A stretch of DNA of 64,000 nt from Gemmatimonadota bacterium (GCA_040388625.1 JAZKBK010000001.1:62001-126000), one strand, 5' to 3'. Shown: positions 3,836 to 42,916, counted from the stretch's first letter. Translations and numbers: made by a program. Notes: a model not told the origin generated them from the letters alone.

Positions 3836-5911
3836 TTGCTACAGATGAATTGGCTGATTAACGCCGCCGACAAAGCTGGTTGGCAGGCCGCCTCCAAGCC
3901 AGCGATTGTGGCAAGCACCACTCTGGAATCCGCATGGCGCGCCGTGGCCAACGCTTACGCAGTATCGGAGGCAGAGCTCGCCTCCCAGGTGGCAGCGCTG
4001 TTTCGCATCCAGCCTGCCGCACTCGACGCCGTCGAACCGCGCGCCGTCAAGCTCGTTCCCGAGAAGACCGCGCGGAAACATCATGTTCTGCCGCTTCGTG
4101 AGTCACAGAACGAGATAGTCGTCGCGACCAGCGATCCCACCGACTACAACGCGGAGCAGGCTGTGCAGTTCACGGCTGGCCGTCGCGTGGTGCTGGAGGT
4201 CGCTCCCTATCAGGCGCTGCTGGACGCAATCAATGCACACTATTCGCCCGAGCGGGCGATGGAGGGGTTGCTGCGCTCGATGGACGTCACGTTGAGTGAC
4301 GTCAAGGTGGTCGAGACGGAAGTAGCCGATCAGGTCGCGGCGAGCGAGGCAGACGCCGCGCCGGTGATTCAGCTCACGAACATGGTTCTGCATGCGGCAA
4401 TCGCATGCAATGCGAGCGACATCCATCTCGAGCCCGGTCGGCATCAGGGTGTGGTACGGTTCAGAGTCGACGGCGTCATGCGACAGTACATGCAGATGCC
4501 GTTGATTGCGCTCACGCGCGTCGTGTCGCGCATAAAGGTCCTCGCCAAGCTCGACATCGCCGACAGGCTGCGTCCGCAGGACGGCCGCACGCGCGTGTCG
4601 ATCGCAGGCCGCACATTCGACCTGCGCATCTCGACGGTGCCGACGCGCGAGGCGGAGAAGGCTGTCGTTCGCATTCTGAATCCTGACGCGTCGCGCTCGC
4701 TCGAAGATCTCGGAATTGCGGATCACGAGCTGGCGCGGCTCAAGTATCTGCTGTCGTTCCGTGAAGGCGTGGTCATCGTCACCGGGCCGACGGGATCGGG
4801 AAAGACGACGACGCTCTACGGCGGAGTGCGCGAGCTCGCCGCGCAGGCGATCAACATCATGACCGTGGAAGATCCGGTCGAGTACGAGCTGCCGGGTGTC
4901 ACGCAGATTCAGATCGACCCGAAGCGGGACGTCACGTTCGCATCGGCGTTGCGCGCAATTCTCCGCCAGGATCCCGACGTCGTATTCGTCGGCGAGATTC
5001 GCGATGCTGAGACGGCCAGCGTCGCGCTGCAGGCTGCCGCAACCGGCCACCTCGTGTTGTCCACGCTTCACACCAACGATGCAGTCGGAGCGATACAGCG
5101 CCTGATCGACCTCGGTCTCGATCGCGCCGCCCTGGCTCCCGCGCTGCGCGGCGTGGTGGGACAGAGACTGATTCGCCGTTTGTGCAGTGTCTGTTCAATC
5201 GAGCAGCCCGAGCAACGCGATGCCGGCACCGTGCGCCTGGAGCGTGCATTCGGAGTGCGCCAGGCGCGTCGCGCCGTTGGCTGCAAGGAATGCGGTGAGA
5301 CGGGCTATCGCGGACGCATTCCACTCGACGAAGTGTTGGTGAGCAGTCCCGACTTTCAGGAAAAGCTGACGCGCAATGCGCCCGCGCTCGATCTGCAACG
5401 CGCGGCGGAGAAGGGCGGGATGCGTCCCATTCGCGAAGTGGCACTCGGCCACGTCGTCGTCGGTGATACGACACTCGACGAAGTGGAACGCGTGCTCGGA
5501 GAGGGCGAAGGCCCACCCGAGAGAGGCGATGAACGTCCGCGCATTCTCGTCGTCGATGACGATCCCGTCACGCGCGAGCTGGCCGTTGGAGTGTTGAAGG
5601 CGACCGGATTCACGGTCGAGCAGGCAACGGACGGACAGGCCGCGCTGGATCTGCTCGCGCACGATTCACGATTCGCGCTCGTCACGCTCGACCTGAGCAT
5701 GCCACGCGTGACAGGCCTCGACGTGCTGAGAAAGATGCGCGCGTCGGCGGCGACGGCGGGCGTGCCGATCGTTGTGCTTACGAGCACCGATGGTGAGGAG
5801 ATGGAAATCAACCTCATGAACGAAGGCGCCGACGATTACCTGCGCAAGCCCCTGGACCCGGCGCGGTTCATCGCACGCATTCGTGCTGTGTTGAGACGGG
5901 CGGCCAACTAG
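3836..5911 (+). CDS. GspE/PilB-type secretion ATPase with C-terminal receiver domain
   Basis: Hexameric motor ATPase of the type II secretion/type IV pilus class, 691 aa. An MshEN-like N-terminal region spans about 40-140. The ATPase core has Walker A GPTGSGKTT (317-325), an Asp box TVEDPVEYE, Walker B RQDPDVVFVGEIRD (377-390), a His box TGHLVLSTLHTN, and a four-Cys zinc site (C450, C453, C483, C486). A complete receiver domain follows (about 569-690): acidic pocket VVDDDP, phospho-acceptor D619 in LDLSMP, T649 and K671. The family normally ends after the zinc-binding region, so the receiver is an addition. No other pilus or secretion gene is nearby. A second ATG three codons in is an alternative start. 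Confidence 0.93.
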   Translation: MLQMNWLINAADKAGWQAASKPAIVASTTLESAWRAVANAYAVSEAELASQVAALFRIQPAALDAVEPRAVKLVPEKTARKHHVLPLRESQNEIVVATSDPTDYNAEQAVQFTAGRRVVLEVAPYQALLDAINAHYSPERAMEGLLRSMDVTLSDVKVVETEVADQVAASEADAAPVIQLTNMVLHAAIACNASDIHLEPGRHQGVVRFRVDGVMRQYMQMPLIALTRVVSRIKVLAKLDIADRLRPQDGRTRVSIAGRTFDLRISTVPTREAEKAVVRILNPDASRSLEDLGIADHELARLKYLLSFREGVVIVTGPTGSGKTTTLYGGVRELAAQAINIMTVEDPVEYELPGVTQIQIDPKRDVTFASALRAILRQDPDVVFVGEIRDAETASVALQAAATGHLVLSTLHTNDAVGAIQRLIDLGLDRAALAPALRGVVGQRLIRRLCSVCSIEQPEQRDAGTVRLERAFGVRQARRAVGCKECGETGYRGRIPLDEVLVSSPDFQEKLTRNAPALDLQRAAEKGGMRPIREVALGHVVVGDTTLDEVERVLGEGEGPPERGDERPRILVVDDDPVTRELAVGVLKATGFTVEQATDGQAALDLLAHDSRFALVTLDLSMPRVTGLDVLRKMRASAATAGVPIVVLTSTDGEEMEINLMNEGADDYLRKPLDPARFIARIRAVLRRAAN

Positions 5912-35605: not shown

Positions 35606-35633
35606 GCGACGTGATCATTCGTGATCAGGTCGC
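35606..35633. terminator. Hairpin between convergent genes
   Basis: GCGACGTGATCA and TGATCAGGTCGC form a 12-bp stem with one mismatch and a 4-nt loop. It abuts the stop codon of the minus-strand kinase gene and may serve both directions. No T-run on either side. Confidence 0.45.
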
Positions 35634-37108
35634 TACGCAGCGGCCTCGGCGCCTTCGCTGTAACCGACCACAGGAAGTTTCACGGTGAAGCGGGCACCGT
35701 GACCAGTATCCGTAGCAGAGATCGTACCGCCATGTCTGGTCACGATGTCGGACACCATCCACAGGCCAAGTCCGGTTCCCTTGCCGGCCGGTTTGGTCGT
35801 GAAGAATCGCTCGAATACATGCTCGACCGCGCCGGGAAGGAAACCGGGTCCGCTGTCTTCCACTGAGAGCGTCGCAGTGTCGCCGTCGCCGCTGACACGA
35901 ATCCGAATGATGCGCTCGGTGGTCTGCGATTCCATCGCCTGAGCTGCGTTGATGATCAGATTGATCACCACGCGCTCGAGCGCGCTGGCGTCGCCGTTCA
36001 CCGGAACCGCGCTACTCTCGGCATCACGCTCGACGGTCACTCTGCGCTCGCGCAGGAGCGACCGGAGAGTCCCGACGCTTCTCGTAACAACGTCGCCGAG
36101 CAGCACTGTAGCGGGCTCCGTCTGGCCCTGGCGTGCGAAGGCGAGAAGATCGTGCAGCGCGGTCGCGGTGCGCCGCGCGTCACTGGCGATCGCGGTGGCT
36201 TCCTCGCGATCGGCTGGATCCGTGAGACCGCGGCCGAGCATCTCCGCGGACAGCGCGATCGCGGTGAGGGGGCTGTTCACCTCGTGCGCTACGCAGGCGG
36301 CGAGTGTGCCAAGCGCTGCGAGCTTGTCTGCCTCCTGAAGGCGAATCGAGAGGTCGCGTTGTTCAGTGTTTCGCACGATCTGTGCGGCCAGCGCACGCCG
36401 CAGCACTCGTTCGTGCCACGCACTTACATAAGTGGCAACTACACCGGCTGCGGCGAGGAGCACCAGCTTCATCCCTTCGTCCAGAATCGCCACATTGGCT
36501 GACGCGGCAGCCGTGATCGGATCCGACCATAGCGTCACGTGCGCAACTTGAACCAGTATCAACAGTACCGCGAGATATTCAGCAGTAATGCAGGCGGCGG
36601 TAATTCCTGTGGACCGCGCCGATCCCATGATCGGGCGTGCCGCCAATATTGCGAAGTAGACGAGTGTGATGGGCGCCTTGAGCGCGACCGACGGCGAGCC
36701 GAGCAGCCCATAGCACAGGATGATCGCTGTAACGGCCGTTGCGTCGACGATCGGGGCGACGGCGGACAGCCAGTGAGGATACGCACCGTCGCGGTTGGGG
36801 ACGAAGGATGCCAGCACCACTGACCAGAGCAGCATCGGAGCGAGAACCGCTGCATTGGCGGCCCGCAGAGGGCGTGGCAAGGCCGTTGAGTAGGCCAGTG
36901 CCGCCACAGTCAGCACGACCACGATCACCAGCCGCAGTACGTTCAGCAGCCCCTCGGCCCGAGCCCGCTCCGCGGCGAGCAGGAAGGTCAGCTCGTCGCT
37001 ATCGGAGCGGGGAGGGGAGTGTATCGGGCCGGTGGCCACGGCAAACATCGTCGTCGAGGACATTGCCCTTAAGGCTCGACCTCCCGTACGGGGACTATAG
37101 GTAGCCAT
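35633..37108 (-). CDS. Membrane sensor histidine kinase
   Basis: 491 aa. About six transmembrane helices (residues 55-245, such as VLRLVIVVVLTVAALAYS and KLVLLAAAGVVATYVSA) without a large periplasmic loop. HisKA: CVAHEVNSPLTAIALSAE. HATPase: NLIINAAQAM, DSGPGFLPGAVEHVFERFFTTK, GTGLGLWMV. No receiver domain. It is divergently transcribed from the receiver/KaiC-like/kinase set, with about 245 bp between them and no other recognisable feature. Met16 or Met21 are alternative starts, since no good ribosome binding site precedes the first Met. Confidence 0.9.
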   Translation of the reverse strand: MATYSPRTGGRALRAMSSTTMFAVATGPIHSPPRSDSDELTFLLAAERARAEGLLNVLRLVIVVVLTVAALAYSTALPRPLRAANAAVLAPMLLWSVVLASFVPNRDGAYPHWLSAVAPIVDATAVTAIILCYGLLGSPSVALKAPITLVYFAILAARPIMGSARSTGITAACITAEYLAVLLILVQVAHVTLWSDPITAAASANVAILDEGMKLVLLAAAGVVATYVSAWHERVLRRALAAQIVRNTEQRDLSIRLQEADKLAALGTLAACVAHEVNSPLTAIALSAEMLGRGLTDPADREEATAIASDARRTATALHDLLAFARQGQTEPATVLLGDVVTRSVGTLRSLLRERRVTVERDAESSAVPVNGDASALERVVINLIINAAQAMESQTTERIIRIRVSGDGDTATLSVEDSGPGFLPGAVEHVFERFFTTKPAGKGTGLGLWMVSDIVTRHGGTISATDTGHGARFTVKLPVVGYSEGAEAAA

Positions 37109-37352
37109 ACTGGAATTTCAGGCCTTCGTCCCGGAACTTGCTGGAGGTGGCAGCGTACGCCGGTGCATTCGGGGTGATCCGAGCGGCCTGACTTCAGATG
37201 ATTATCTTACGACTGCTCGCGTCGCCTGGCGAACGCCGGATCACTGGTTCGTGCCGGTCGTGCACCGGAGGCCTTTTTTTCTGATCCTGCGTCCGTGGCA
37301 TGTGCGCCTGCGCCTCAACGCCGTTGTCTGGCCTTGCCGTAATTGCGAATCC

Positions 37353-37781
37353 GTGAATACAGACGAAGCAAGCGCGTTGGTCCTGGTTGTTGAACGCGAC
37401 CCCAACGTGCGTGAGCTCGAGTCCTTTTTTCTCAACGAAGCTGGTTTCGCGGTGGACTTTGCCGAAGACGGCGTCGCCGCATTGCAGCTCGCACGTGAGA
37501 GGCGGCCCGCGATCATTGTCACCGAGATCATGGTTCCCAAGCTGGATGGTCTGGCGTTGTGCCGGGCTGTCAAGGAGGACCCCGAACTTGCCGACACCGT
37601 CGTGCTCGTGTTCAGCATTCTCGCCGCACATGGGCGTGCGCGCGACGCCGGCGCGGATGCGTTTCTGATCAAGCCACTGGCCGAGCAACGGCTGGTTCAA
37701 ACTGTTCGTGAGTTGCTGGAGAGGAGAGCCGCAACATCTCCTCATACCGCACCAGGGACGCAACCGGGACAGCTTCGATGA
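37353..37781 (+). CDS. Stand-alone receiver domain with Glu at the phosphorylation site
   Basis: 142 aa from a GTG at 37353. CheY-like fold: LVLVVERDPNVRELE, AIIVTEIMVPKLDGL, VVLVFSI and ADAFLIKPL. The position normally held by the phospho-accepting Asp is Glu58 (VTEIMVP), while the Lys (K107) and the Ser switch residue remain. A Glu there usually mimics the phosphorylated state. Its stop overlaps the start of the KaiC-like gene as ATGA, so the two are translationally coupled. A longer N-terminus from 37251 is possible but lacks domain content. Confidence 0.85.
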   Translation: MNTDEASALVLVVERDPNVRELESFFLNEAGFAVDFAEDGVAALQLARERRPAIIVTEIMVPKLDGLALCRAVKEDPELADTVVLVFSILAAHGRARDAGADAFLIKPLAEQRLVQTVRELLERRAATSPHTAPGTQPGQLR

Positions 37782-39193
37782 CTGATGCACTGATGGACGA
37801 ATCGGGCGTCGCGGACGGCTCCGTCGTGTTCCCCCGCATCAGTACGGGGAACCCGCAGGCCGACGCGATTCTGGGCGGCGGCTTTCCCGCGAATTCGATC
37901 AACATCATCATGGGCCAGCCCGGCACTGGAAAGACGATCTTCGCCGAGCAGCTGCTCTTTCACAATGCGAATCCGACCAGGCCTCTACTCTATCTGACCA
38001 CTCTGTCAGAGCCCATGTCAAAGGTCGTGAGCTACGCACAGCGGCTCGACTTTTTCGACATCGACCAGGTCGGCACAGGTATCCTGTATGACGATCTCGG
38101 CGCCAAGCTGATTGCTGACGGGCCGGCCGCGCTGGTACCACACCTTCTGGAATCCATAAAGCGGCTGTCGCCATCGATCGTGGTGATCGACTCGTTCAAG
38201 GCCGTACACGACATCGCTCAATCCACCTCGGAGATGCGGCGACTCGTATCGCAGCTCGCGGGAGTCGTGTCGGCTTACGATATGACTGTGTTTCTCCTGG
38301 GTGAATACACGCAGGACAACATCGAGCAATATCCGGAGTTTGCGGTTGCGGATTCCATCGTGCAGCTGGAACGCAATACGCTTGGTGCCCGGGATGAGCG
38401 ATACGTCCGGGTGCTGAAGCTGCGCGGAAGCGGCTACAGCGAGGGCAGGCACGCGTTTCGCATCACGTCTACGGGTCTCGCGATCTTTCCGCGCCTGGTG
38501 ACACCAAAGTTCGAGAGCTATGTCCCGCTCCTCGAGCGAACGGCCACCGGAATCGAGGGGCTGGACGAGATCATGGGCGGCGGCGTGTGGCGTGGCAGCA
38601 CCACGCTCGTCGCCGGCCCAACCGGTGCTGGCAAGTCGACCATCGGGCTTCAGTTCGCTTTGCAGGCGCATCGCGACGGCGAGGCAGTGCTTTTCGTGAA
38701 CTTCCAGGAAAACCCTGCTCAGGTGCAGCGGATGATCCGAGCGCTCGGGACAGATCCGGAAATCGCCTACACAACGGGCTTTCATCACCTCTACAGATCC
38801 CCCGTGGAGTTGCAGATCGACAGCGTCATCGTGGAGATATTCAACTTCATCGAGACGGCGAATGTGCGGCGTGTCGTAATCGATGCCGTTGGTGATCTGT
38901 CGACAGCTGCGAGCGATCCGCATCGTCTGAATGACTTTCTATATTCGCTCGTGCAGCACTTCGTGGTCCGTAACGTGACGACGCTCCTCAATCTCGAGTC
39001 GGCGCCTGGTGTTACAGGCAGACGAGAGGAAGAGCAACGGTGGAGTTACATGTCCGATAACGTGTTGGTCCTGGAGCGGGGTGAAGGCCTGGCCGGGGAG
39101 CGTACAATACGAGTAGTGAAGACACGCAACAGCGATCACGACCCGTTGCCACACCGCGTGGAAATCCGTCGTGATGGCGTTCACGTCGTCTGA
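37778..39193 (+). CDS. Double-domain KaiC-like RecA-family ATPase
   Basis: 471 aa made of two KaiC/RadA-like ATPase domains. Domain 1: Walker A GQPGTGKT (46-53), Walker B IVVIDSF (134-140). Domain 2: GPTGAGKS (280-287), RVVIDAV (365-371). The paired glutamates after the fourth strand in cyanobacterial KaiC (EE) read S-E (LSEP, 76-79) and Q-E (FQEN, 309-312). By eye, the region of the KaiC phospho-site pair reads RWSYMSDNV. No kaiA or kaiB is present. Overlaps the receiver gene by 4 bp; a histidine kinase gene follows 55 bp downstream. Confidence 0.88.
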   Translation: MTDALMDESGVADGSVVFPRISTGNPQADAILGGGFPANSINIIMGQPGTGKTIFAEQLLFHNANPTRPLLYLTTLSEPMSKVVSYAQRLDFFDIDQVGTGILYDDLGAKLIADGPAALVPHLLESIKRLSPSIVVIDSFKAVHDIAQSTSEMRRLVSQLAGVVSAYDMTVFLLGEYTQDNIEQYPEFAVADSIVQLERNTLGARDERYVRVLKLRGSGYSEGRHAFRITSTGLAIFPRLVTPKFESYVPLLERTATGIEGLDEIMGGGVWRGSTTLVAGPTGAGKSTIGLQFALQAHRDGEAVLFVNFQENPAQVQRMIRALGTDPEIAYTTGFHHLYRSPVELQIDSVIVEIFNFIETANVRRVVIDAVGDLSTAASDPHRLNDFLYSLVQHFVVRNVTTLLNLESAPGVTGRREEEQRWSYMSDNVLVLERGEGLAGERTIRVVKTRNSDHDPLPHRVEIRRDGVHVV

Positions 39194-39247
39194 CTCGATG
39201 AGCCAGCGTGGATGTGACCCTGCGGAAGACTACCGGCTTCTGATGAA

Positions 39248-40546
39248 ATGATGGACGACATGGAACGGCCCGGCCGTATCGAGGACCTCCACCAGCTGAC
39301 TCGACTCAGTCGGGAATTCACGTACGCGCGATCGCTCGATGAGATTCTCGATCTGGCGGTCTCACAGTCGGCGCATCTGATGCGGTCCGAGAAGGCGGTG
39401 CTGCTGCTCACGGATGACGACGGACTGCTCCGCGTGCGTGCGTCGATAGGAGTCGATGCGGAAATCGTCGAGCGTTTCAGACAGCCGGCGAACGAGGCCC
39501 TGGTGAGTCGGTTGCGTGGCTTGCTGGGTGCCAACCTGGCGGGTGGCTTCGTCGGTGTTCCGCTGGTGTCGCATGGAAACGTCGTCGGGCTTCTGGCCAC
39601 GGTGCGGCCGGATGGACTCCCGGTATCGGAAGATGACGAGTGGTTGCTCGCTGCGCTGGCGGACCAGATTGCCGCGCCGCTCGAAAACGCGCGCCTCGCG
39701 AAACAGCTCGAGAGTTCCGCGCTGCTCGCCGAAAACGTGCGCCTTTATGAAGCGGAGCACGAAGCGCGCGTCGTTGCCGAGGTTGCGCTTCGCGAAGCCG
39801 AATCCGCTCGCGACGCCGCGTTGCAAGCCGACACGAGCAAGACGTCGTTTCTCGCGGCGATGAGTCATGAGCTGCGCACGCCGCTGAACGCAATCGGCGG
39901 CTACGTCGAGCTGCTGGAGATGGGATTACGAGGTCCGATCACCGTCGAGCAGGCAGACGACCTCAGGCGCATCAAGGCGAGCCAGGCTCACTTGTTGCGC
40001 CTCATAACGGAGGTGCTCGATTTCGCACGACTCGGCTCCGGACATACCGAACTGCATTTCGACGACGTCGATCTGCACGAGATCCTGCGAGAAGCTGAAA
40101 TAATGACCATGCCGCAGGCGAGAGCGCGGGGAATCGAGTACGCATACGAGCCGCTCGACTGTCGTGTCATCGTGCGTGCCGATCCGCACAGGCTGCAACA
40201 GATTGTACTCAACCTTCTCACCAACGCAATCAAGTTCACCGAGCCCGGCGGAGCGATACGCATGACGTGCGGACCCGTGAGCGGTGGATCAACAGGACAG
40301 AAACGTGTGCGCGTCTCCGTGCAGGATACAGGGCGCGGCATACCACCCGATCAGATCGATGGCATATGGCAGCCGTTCGTTCAGGTCGGGCGGAAACTCA
40401 ATCATCCGAGCGAGGGTGTCGGCCTGGGGCTGGCAATCAGCCGGGATCTCGCGCGACGGCTTGGTGGCGAGTTGAGTGTCACCAGCGAATTGGGCCGCGG
40501 GTCGGAGTTCACACTCACGTTGCCCGTGCTACGAATGGGGCAGTGA
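39248..40546 (+). CDS. GAF-domain sensor histidine kinase
   Basis: 432 aa, soluble. A GAF domain spans about 14-150 (SLDEILDLAVSQSAHLMRSEKAV), a coiled coil runs to about 195, then HisKA with H207 (MSHELRTPLNAIGGYVELL) and HATPase boxes NLLTNAIKFTE, DTGRGIPPDQIDGIWQPF and GVGLGLAISRDLARR. Third gene of the receiver/KaiC-like/kinase set. The stop overlaps the end of the convergent DNA polymerase gene by 18 bp. Confidence 0.9.
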   Translation: MMDDMERPGRIEDLHQLTRLSREFTYARSLDEILDLAVSQSAHLMRSEKAVLLLTDDDGLLRVRASIGVDAEIVERFRQPANEALVSRLRGLLGANLAGGFVGVPLVSHGNVVGLLATVRPDGLPVSEDDEWLLAALADQIAAPLENARLAKQLESSALLAENVRLYEAEHEARVVAEVALREAESARDAALQADTSKTSFLAAMSHELRTPLNAIGGYVELLEMGLRGPITVEQADDLRRIKASQAHLLRLITEVLDFARLGSGHTELHFDDVDLHEILREAEIMTMPQARARGIEYAYEPLDCRVIVRADPHRLQQIVLNLLTNAIKFTEPGGAIRMTCGPVSGGSTGQKRVRVSVQDTGRGIPPDQIDGIWQPFVQVGRKLNHPSEGVGLGLAISRDLARRLGGELSVTSELGRGSEFTLTLPVLRMGQ

Positions 40547-42916
40547 TTCGGTCGACAGCATCATGGTCGCGGTGCTGGTCGTAAGAACTGTGCGTACTGA
40601 TTCGATGGATGGCTGGAAGATGGAGAACTGGTCCGCGTCCGCGAATACGGTGGTAAAGTCCAGCGGGGTGAACGCGCGCGCCATTCGCTGTGCGTAGGTA
40701 GTGTGGAGCAGCCGGACATAATGGTCCACGGAATAATCGCGCGGATCCTGATCCGCGCTCTCGTCCTCGTGCGAAGTGAGGAGCCCGTACTCGCCGTTCT
40801 GCTTGCGGTACACGCGAATGCGGTCCCCGACGCTCCACGTCGTCCGGCCCGCACTCAACAGTGCCTCGTATGGAATCTCGCGACGCTTCGCTCTGGTCGC
40901 GAGATAATCCTGCGGCGGTTTGGAGAGGCGGAGTCGCGCCGATACATCATGCGTCGAGAGAAGCCGCGTCTGAAGCGCGGCGACAGTCGCGAGATATGCA
41001 CGCCGAACGCCCGGCACATCGCCGGCGAGCAGTCGTGCGATCGCCTGCCGCAGGAATGCCTCGCCAAACGGCTCAGAGCGGCTCGATCTGAAGGCGACGC
41101 CTCTCAGCAATAGCGTTCCATCGTAGCCGAGCAGTGCATAATTCTTGGGCTCGTGTGACAGCATGGCTGCGTAGCGTCCCTCGAATTCGAGCTGGACCAG
41201 TGGCGGTAGCAGCGTTGCGACATCCGCGACGACGCGGCGCTCATCCGCTTCATTCCAGCTTGCAGGCACCGCGAAATACACGCCGTCCGTATCGGCTTCG
41301 AGTAGCGTCACGCCGCGAGCGGCGAGCTCCCTGCATAGAAGTCCAAGCACTTCGCGTCCGCGTCGTGTGACTTCGTTCGCCGCGTGAATGTCGGCGAATC
41401 GCGTGAGGCCGCCCGCGCCGAGATAACCGTACGCGGAGTTCACGACTATCTTGAGTGCTGCGGACATCGCTTCGTTGCTGTGTCGTTGAGCCGAACCCGG
41501 CACAGAGATCCTCGCGCGAGCCTTGGCCTCAAGTCGGCGCTCGACCAGACCATCGACGAGTGCCAGAAGAACGCCGAGCCGATCGCGCGCGGGTCCGATG
41601 CGATACGTGCGCATCAGCGATGGATACAGACTTGCTACGTCCGCCTTGACGACGCGATGTGCGACACCGGCCGCGAAGAGATGTAGCGCTGCGCCACTAT
41701 GTGAAGTTCCGTCGCCAGGTTGATGTGCAGGCAGCGCCGCGCCGGAGCGTATGTACGCGCGCACGATCAGAGGATCGATGACGCCGGTCGCGGCGCCGGC
41801 ATCCGCCAGTCGTTCGTACCGTCTCGGAACCATCTGCGCGAGTGCATACGCCGCGCCGCCGAGGAGACGCGACAGCTGCGCCACCTCCTCGACGTCGTCC
41901 GTTGCGTATCGACGCACGCGATCCGGATCGGTACGGAATGTCGTGTAGATCTGATCGCCGCGTATGTACTCGCGATCCGGGGCCGCGATGCCGAGATGCT
42001 TCGCGACGGCCTTGAGCCCGTATCCCGGCAGTTCGCGCGTCGAGAAGTCGTAGCGCCGTACCGCATCGAGAGTGTCTATGAGCTCTCTACCTGGCGCGAC
42101 GAATCTTACGCGTCTCCGGTCGTTGGGGTCACTGGATCGAATACCGCGCCGCGCTGCGCGCTGTCGCAATCCCGCGGTCTGGATTCTGCCGAGTGAGAGC
42201 GGGGCGCCGAGCATACGGGAGCGCTGGTCCAGAAACGGAAGATCGAAGCCATGCAGGTTGTGATTCTCTATCACGTCGGGATCGGCCGCGTGCACGGATT
42301 GGACGAGACGACGGATCAGATCGGCTTCGGCAGCGTCGTCATCGCTCGTCGCTTCGAGCACTTCCGTGTCGCCCGTGTGATAGCGGATCGAGATCATGAA
42401 GATGCGATCCTGCTGCGGGTCGAGGCCGGTGGTCTCGAGATCGAACTGCATGCGGTGCAGTGCGTCGAACGGGAGATCGCGAAAATAATTGCGTCCAGTT
42501 GCGACGAGATACTGCTCTTCGGGTGGCAGCGACAGCACGTTCTGCTGGCCAAGCTCGCTGATGTGATTGATACGCTGTCCCATCCTTTCGGACGCACCGC
42601 GGAGAATGGCTGCAGTGAGGGAGCGACCGTCAGTCGCGGTAACGAGATGACGGAGCGCGCCCGGTCCTTCCAGCTCACGATGGCGAAATGCAGCCGATGG
42701 GCTGTTGCCATGATCGAGTCTGCTGCCCAGATGATTCAGGTCGTCGATGTGCGCGAGCAGCACCCATGGGCGAAAGCGCTCCTGCTCACGTACGAGTGCC
42801 CCCGTTTCGGCGATGCGGCGCCACACCGTTGCGCGTCCGTCATGGTCCGCATGAACGGATACGATCCCCGGTGTTGCGTCCCAGCCCCAGAGCCACTCGT
42901 CCGTCTCAGGGTTCAT
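40529..42916 (-). CDS. polB: Family B DNA polymerase (Pol II type)
   Basis: 795 aa, close to the size of E. coli Pol II. Proofreading motifs are intact: Exo I MQFDLETTGLD (D159, E161), Exo II NHNLHGFDLPFL, Exo III YATDDVEEV. Polymerase motifs: A KADVASLYPSLM (D426), B KIVVNSAYGYLG, C EADTDGVYF (D542, D544). Family B enzymes in bacteria work in damage tolerance and replication restart. Single gene between a kinase (convergent) and a periplasmic protein gene on the same strand. Confidence 0.93.
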   Translation of the reverse strand: MNPETDEWLWGWDATPGIVSVHADHDGRATVWRRIAETGALVREQERFRPWVLLAHIDDLNHLGSRLDHGNSPSAAFRHRELEGPGALRHLVTATDGRSLTAAILRGASERMGQRINHISELGQQNVLSLPPEEQYLVATGRNYFRDLPFDALHRMQFDLETTGLDPQQDRIFMISIRYHTGDTEVLEATSDDDAAEADLIRRLVQSVHAADPDVIENHNLHGFDLPFLDQRSRMLGAPLSLGRIQTAGLRQRAARRGIRSSDPNDRRRVRFVAPGRELIDTLDAVRRYDFSTRELPGYGLKAVAKHLGIAAPDREYIRGDQIYTTFRTDPDRVRRYATDDVEEVAQLSRLLGGAAYALAQMVPRRYERLADAGAATGVIDPLIVRAYIRSGAALPAHQPGDGTSHSGAALHLFAAGVAHRVVKADVASLYPSLMRTYRIGPARDRLGVLLALVDGLVERRLEAKARARISVPGSAQRHSNEAMSAALKIVVNSAYGYLGAGGLTRFADIHAANEVTRRGREVLGLLCRELAARGVTLLEADTDGVYFAVPASWNEADERRVVADVATLLPPLVQLEFEGRYAAMLSHEPKNYALLGYDGTLLLRGVAFRSSRSEPFGEAFLRQAIARLLAGDVPGVRRAYLATVAALQTRLLSTHDVSARLRLSKPPQDYLATRAKRREIPYEALLSAGRTTWSVGDRIRVYRKQNGEYGLLTSHEDESADQDPRDYSVDHYVRLLHTTYAQRMARAFTPLDFTTVFADADQFSIFQPSIESVRTVLTTSTATMMLSTESLPHS

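Follow-up and report, generated by a model that had tools for sequence, protein, structure and literature searches.

KaiC-like ATPases are common outside cyanobacteria, and their partners are mostly unknown. The locus described here, which encodes such an ATPase together with a receiver and histidine kinases, raises the question of whether these genes form a signalling system that works without the clock proteins KaiA and KaiB. The window, meaning the whole 64,000-nucleotide stretch that was analysed (G000:C1:62001-126000), comes from a soil bacterium; its 3.84 Mb assembly is 99.3% complete and its relatives are Gemmatimonadota MAGs. The genes for the receiver, the KaiC-like ATPase and a GAF histidine kinase lie close together on the plus strand, and a membrane kinase gene is divergent from them (Table 1); the coordinates, strands, 4-bp overlap and divergent kinase given by a prior sequence-only reading all hold against the sequence and Pfam.

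We favour the GTG at 37353 as the receiver start codon over the GTG at 37251 because the receiver N-terminus aligns with its orthologues from 'VN'. The shared ATGA, as read from the sequence, points to translational coupling of the receiver and ATPase genes, and 54 nt separate the ATPase stop from the GAF kinase start. The GAF kinase has the features of a HisKA sensor kinase, with Pfam matches to GAF, HisKA and HATPase_c, an intact H-box (MSHELRTPL) carrying the phospho-acceptor His, and intact N and G boxes. Hydropathy of the membrane kinase revealed roughly five to seven hydrophobic stretches, overlapping one another, within residues 54-230, which fits the six helices attributed to it earlier. 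The last 18 bp of the GAF kinase gene are shared with a convergent minus-strand gene (40529-42916) for a family-B DNA polymerase related to DNA polymerase II. A Type II/IV secretion ATPase (PilB/GspE-like) with a fused C-terminal receiver domain is encoded at 3836-5911 on the plus strand of the window.

Table 1. Features of the locus, in window coordinates.
Feature	Position	Strand	Evidence
Membrane histidine kinase, 491 aa; neighbour but no conserved member	35633..37108	-	Pfam HisKA + HATPase_c
Stand-alone pseudo-receiver, 142 aa	37353..37781	+	Pfam, alignment to solved receivers, 39-41 orthologues, AlphaFold model
ATGA, receiver stop and ATPase start shared, 4-bp overlap	37778..37781	+	Sequence
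Two-domain KaiC-like ATPase, 471 aa	37778..39193	+	Pfam, model, tree
Soluble GAF-HisKA-HATPase_c histidine kinase, 432 aa	39248..40546	+	Pfam, sequence

Gene order and placement of the ATPase

Orthologues of the ATPase (52-95% identity) were present in 8 of 60 related genomes, always with the receiver upstream. The GAF kinase follows at each of these loci apart from a second ATPase copy in G017 (L043:7546-8771), which is broken by a frameshift and has an intact pseudo-receiver upstream. A scan with short motifs, using one genome per species, yielded 42 loci of the same family (39-95% identity) in Gemmatimonadota, Melainabacteria/Obscuribacterales, Myxococcota, a Thiogranum MAG and two Kribbella isolates, and the receiver–ATPase pair was found in at least four phyla. 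Several MAG names in this set are doubtful: L081 ('Actinobacteria') and L071 and L077 ('Rhodospirillales', 'Pseudomonadota') all fall among the Melainabacteria. A single receiver gene lies immediately 5' of the ATPase in 41 of the 42 loci, and in the other (L094) the contig begins inside the ATPase gene. Of the 40 pairs that could be measured, 26 overlap by exactly 4 bp. Since the first scan relied on short motifs, a clade HMM was also run on 249 Gemmatimonadota genomes. Its scores were bimodal (650-778 bits versus at most 371 for other full-length matches), and all 12 genomes with a full-length clade member had the receiver, while none of the 18 sister-group loci from the same search had one within 1.5 kb. 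Conservation of the order of receiver and ATPase is far above chance, so the pair passes the comparison across related genomes on which the sequence-only reading had staked its case. Fusions of the receiver and KaiC genes were sought among the clade loci and none was seen; long open frames at some loci were considered as fusions and rejected, being upstream extensions of the KaiC frame.

The third and fourth genes are less constant. The GAF kinase follows in 22/42 loci (Gemmatimonadota, Myxococcota and Thiogranum); the remaining 20, some of which are on contigs that end there, have no recognised GAF kinase downstream. Obscuribacterales loci mostly consist of the pair alone among unrelated genes, and G038 has a different histidine kinase downstream. 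The membrane kinase is adjacent only in the window's genome, G002 and G003; it is no neighbour in G001 (same genus, with another kinase upstream), G020, G034 or G017. The four-gene module proposed earlier was rejected because the membrane kinase adjoins the cluster only within the genus, and the conserved core is the receiver and ATPase, then the GAF kinase in a subset. One Obscuribacter MAG carries a tandem REC-KaiC-REC-KaiC arrangement followed by a CHASE3-PAS kinase and another receiver (L072:178-6058); this tandem is the only one noted. Pairwise distances were correlated between receiver and ATPase (Mantel r = 0.72, reached in 0 of 2000 permutations) and between ATPase and kinase (r = 0.89), with a range of 0.52-0.89 over the three proteins; such covariation is as expected for genes travelling together, and in part reflects shared species history.

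Maximum-likelihood analysis of 71 proteins placed the ATPases linked to a receiver in one clade (100/98), apart from KaiB-associated KaiCs (100/99) and from RadA, with the genome's own RadA as a distant outgroup. Other KaiC-like proteins of the same bacterial family, which have PAS/GAF kinase neighbours and no receiver, fell outside the clade. The ATPase scored far below the NCBIfam circ_KaiC cut-off (105.5 versus 546 bits), and below the PRK09302 cut-off (189 versus 408 bits) and the sms cut-off (82 of 403 bits). A role as a RadA/Sms DNA repair protein, the grouping named earlier as counting against the module, was rejected given this low sms score, the two KaiC-like domains in Pfam and the separation in the tree. 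Profile searches of the 99.3% complete genome gave no match for KaiA (PF07688) or KaiB (PF07689), and KaiB was absent from the genus too; both profiles matched in a Synechococcus control. The earlier description of a signalling module around a KaiC-like ATPase without KaiA or KaiB thus stands.

Residues lost from the receiver and the ATPase

The receiver matched Pfam Response_reg (4.8e-18), and its AlphaFold model is a confident receiver fold (pLDDT 91.8) with a short helix 4. The closest solved structures were all receivers (Z about 20-22); KaiA-domain and CikA structures were absent from the best 50 structural matches, which has no bearing either way. The fold therefore agrees with the label of receiver assigned from the sequence, but both the Mg-binding and the phospho-acceptor Asp are lost, which that reading had missed. 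Alignment to DivK and other solved receivers places E14-R15 at the normally acidic DD pair, with Arg15 (37395-37397) in place of the Mg-binding Asp (DD2) and Glu58 (37524-37526) in place of the phospho-acceptor, making phosphotransfer from a kinase to this receiver unlikely. DD2 was non-acidic in all 41 aligned receivers (Arg in 26). The acceptor position, over 42 rows with the window included, held Glu in 31 rows and Asp in the other 11. Gemmatimonadota and Myxococcota members all have Glu; Asp is kept in Obscuribacterales and Kribbella, some of whose receivers might still be phosphorylated. On the ATPase tree, the Asp/Glu state requires three changes and the downstream kinase two.

The switch residues Ser88 and Lys107 are kept, as are Ser and Lys in the orthologues. 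They are 19 residues apart in 39/39 receivers, whereas the canonical spacing, as in CheY (T87-K109), is 22, which leaves the beta4-alpha4/helix-4 region three residues short. Only 16-36 residues follow the K-P motif across the clade (about 30 in the window protein), and the 142-aa receiver has no KaiA-like four-helix C-terminal domain. DD2 is always acidic in true receivers, and pseudo-receivers, whose regulation in bacteria has been called a mystery, make up about 6% of bacterial receivers (PMC12632262). By the definition in that review, the protein as aligned here, with its Response_reg match and its loss of DD2 and the acceptor Asp, classes as a pseudo-receiver.

The ATPase matched the KaiC ATPase family (PF06745, 2.2e-64) in two stretches, and its model resembled KaiC structures with a TM of about 0.75-0.81. 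As in circadian KaiC, there are two RecA-like KaiC domains with Walker A and B motifs: Walker A K52/K286, Walker B D138/D369 and the trans fingers K214/R216 and K448/R450 are invariant in 36/36 clade ATPases. The earlier label of KaiC-like is borne out by this fold and these motifs, but not by the catalytic residues. S77 (38006-38008) stands in place of KaiC E77, and Q310 (38705-38707) replaces E318, with Gln in 36/36 clade members and never in other groups; E78 and E311 are kept. In KaiC, E77 activates water in CI, E318 activates Thr432/Ser431 in CII, E78/E319 bind Mg, and phosphoryl transfer is lost in E318A (PMC2777353). The Thr432 position is Y424 in the window and Y/N/A/H across the clade, with Thr in 0/36, and the S431 position is Ser in 35/36. 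The ATPase ends with the last CII strand, leaving a tail of 0-6 residues in the clade versus 11-117 in KaiB-associated KaiCs. Two conserved glutamates near the ATPase sites, E176 (36/36) and E407 (34/36), could serve as catalytic bases for hydrolysis in place of those lost, so we claim loss of the autokinase alone and withhold the claim of a dead enzyme.

A proposed ring–receiver mechanism and its rivals

Because receiver chemistry and ATPase autokinase residues are both degraded in one operon, signalling by nucleotide state and binding is the simplest reading. We suggest, with a probability of roughly 0.5, that the KaiC-like protein of this cluster forms a ring that works independently of phosphorylation and sends its signal via a dedicated pseudo-receiver, coupled at this locus to a kinase. 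The KaiC-like protein would assemble into a double-ring hexamer with ATP bound at the subunit interfaces, as proposed from the invariance of all Walker and trans-finger residues, and the ring would no longer phosphorylate itself. The translationally coupled pseudo-receiver may bind this ring as a fixed adaptor without switching by a kinase, and the ring's nucleotide state, perhaps reflecting the cellular ATP/ADP state, may control that binding as the site is offered or hidden. In this lineage the ring–receiver complex would tune the co-encoded GAF histidine kinase, which must then phosphorylate an unlinked response regulator. The GAF kinase need not be the output, given the 20 loci with no recognised one downstream. 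The Kribbella soli receiver, whose gene shares 4 bp with the ATPase gene, carries a fused MerR DNA-binding domain, which suggests that there the receiver itself is the output. This MerR-receiver fusion is found at L096:5348-6010 and probably also in L093, with LuxR-type regulators following.

We considered whether the pseudo-receiver is instead a KaiA-like regulator, an input acting on the ATPase with the ring and histidine kinase as output. This is the main rival, and we hold it to be unlikely. KaiA has a pseudo-receiver N-domain, KaiA3 combines a receiver with a KaiA-like C-domain and is encoded beside kaiB3 (PMC11372060, PMC12632262), and the receiver is co-inherited with the ATPase at every observable clade locus. 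Against it, the receiver has no KaiA-like C-domain and the genome no PF07688 match, the ATPase has no counterpart of the tail by which KaiA holds KaiC, and the Kribbella MerR fusion favours the receiver as output. In an ordinary phosphorelay, the GAF kinase would phosphorylate the receiver (at Asp in certain species, but here at Glu or a different residue) and the receiver would then control the ATPase; this is less probable still. The intact catalytic boxes of the co-encoded kinase would suit it, as would the retained Ser88 and Lys107 and the Asp in Obscuribacterales and Kribbella, but DD2 is non-acidic throughout and helix 4 of the receiver is shortened. Moreover, the Gemmatimonadota and Myxococcota with a Glu acceptor are exactly the members with the GAF kinase, whereas those keeping Asp have none adjacent; Glu in every member of the GAF kinase lineages makes a conventional relay unlikely.

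Linkage by chance, or as a genomic block moved with no joint function, would fit the variation of upstream and downstream flanks between lineages. The pair stays linked in 41/42 and 12/12 cases over several phyla, its reading frames overlapping and every flank differing, and we consider this explanation very improbable. Identification of the ATPase as a circadian KaiC was rejected for lack of KaiA and KaiB, loss of E318 and T432 and absence of the tail. The KaiC fold and two-domain layout could also belong to a reduced circadian or hourglass clock without KaiA and KaiB, and KaiC-KaiB hourglass timers without KaiA are known in Rhodobacter (PMC11372060). Here KaiB is missing from genome and genus, E318 and T432 are lost clade-wide along with the tail, the circ_KaiC score is 105.5 against 546, and the clade stands apart from KaiB-associated KaiCs; a clock is the least probable of these readings.

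The same pair recurs in distant bacterial phyla, which marks it as a genuine though unstudied kind of signalling module, not a clock. As a more tentative extension of the ring–receiver proposal, to which we give rather less than even odds, several phyla may share a phosphate-free KaiC double ring with an obligate stand-alone pseudo-receiver, which would pass the ATP/ADP state to kinases in Gemmatimonadota and Myxococcota or to DNA through the MerR-receiver of Kribbella. Kept in several phyla, and with the two phosphorylation chemistries both altered in a single operon, the pair is a clean system for asking whether a ring driven by nucleotides is able to drive a pseudo-receiver. Kribbella soli and K. 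jiaozuonensis are named, culturable strains with a version whose DNA-binding domain makes the output measurable.

Comparison with known systems

KaiC-like hubs, methanogen KaiC-REC fusions, the pseudo-receivers of KaiA and CikA, and kinase neighbours of KaiC-like proteins are already known. The arrangement had been put forward as perhaps undescribed: the theme of KaiC, histidine kinase and response regulator as such is not new, since looser neighbourhoods of this kind are common in Pseudomonadota plasmids and around sister Gemmatimonadota KaiCs, and the new part is the pseudo-receiver clade. No conserved pseudo-receiver/KaiC-like pair in which both proteins have lost phosphorylation residues is described in the literature searched, with Makarova et al. 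2017 (archaeal KaiC hubs) outside its scope.

The Pseudomonadota-plasmid and sister Gemmatimonadota (group 2) KaiC-likes share sensor kinase neighbours and sometimes receivers with the window system, but they are about 31-38% identical, fall in other clades, have any receivers downstream, and carry E or another residue rather than Q at the E318 position. Receivers beside the plasmid KaiC-likes of Sphingobium and Geminicoccaceae keep the acidic DD pair and Asp. Two plasmid-KaiC receivers (L118:4967-5335 and L117:4934-5362) retain their active-site acids but have a modified helix-4 region with a Ser-to-Lys spacing of 20, counted by eye. A small uncharacterised gene of about 140 aa lies directly 5' of several sister-group KaiC-likes (L045-L056, L113, L114), in the slot of the pseudo-receiver; it is common to Gemmatimonadota and Pseudomonadota plasmids and may be another KaiC partner.

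Like cyanobacterial KaiC, the window ATPase has two RecA-like domains, intact Walker motifs, trans K/R fingers and a matching structure; unlike it, the window ATPase has S for E77 and Q for E318, lacks T432, the KaiA-binding tail, KaiA and KaiB, and belongs to a separate clade. KaiA and CikA are likewise receiver-fold proteins without phosphorylation, working with KaiC or KaiB (PMC12632262, PMC11372060), whereas the window receiver differs from KaiA, KaiA3 and CikA in being stand-alone, matching Pfam Response_reg, having no KaiA-like C-domain or kinase fusion, and lacking three residues in the beta4-alpha4/helix-4 region. Archaeal KaiC-like signalling hubs, and the KaiC-REC fusions of Methanosarcinaceae (PMC5847659), also join a KaiC-superfamily ATPase to receiver or kinase signalling, but the window system is bacterial and two-domain, with separate overlapping genes, a degenerate receiver and a position in another clade. 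BcsE (PMC7439463), in which a degenerate RecA/KaiC-like domain and a degenerate receiver are fused, differs in being a single protein whose Walker A is degenerate and in its tie to cellulose secretion, and it provides a precedent for a KaiC-fold domain that works with a phosphorylation-incompetent receiver.
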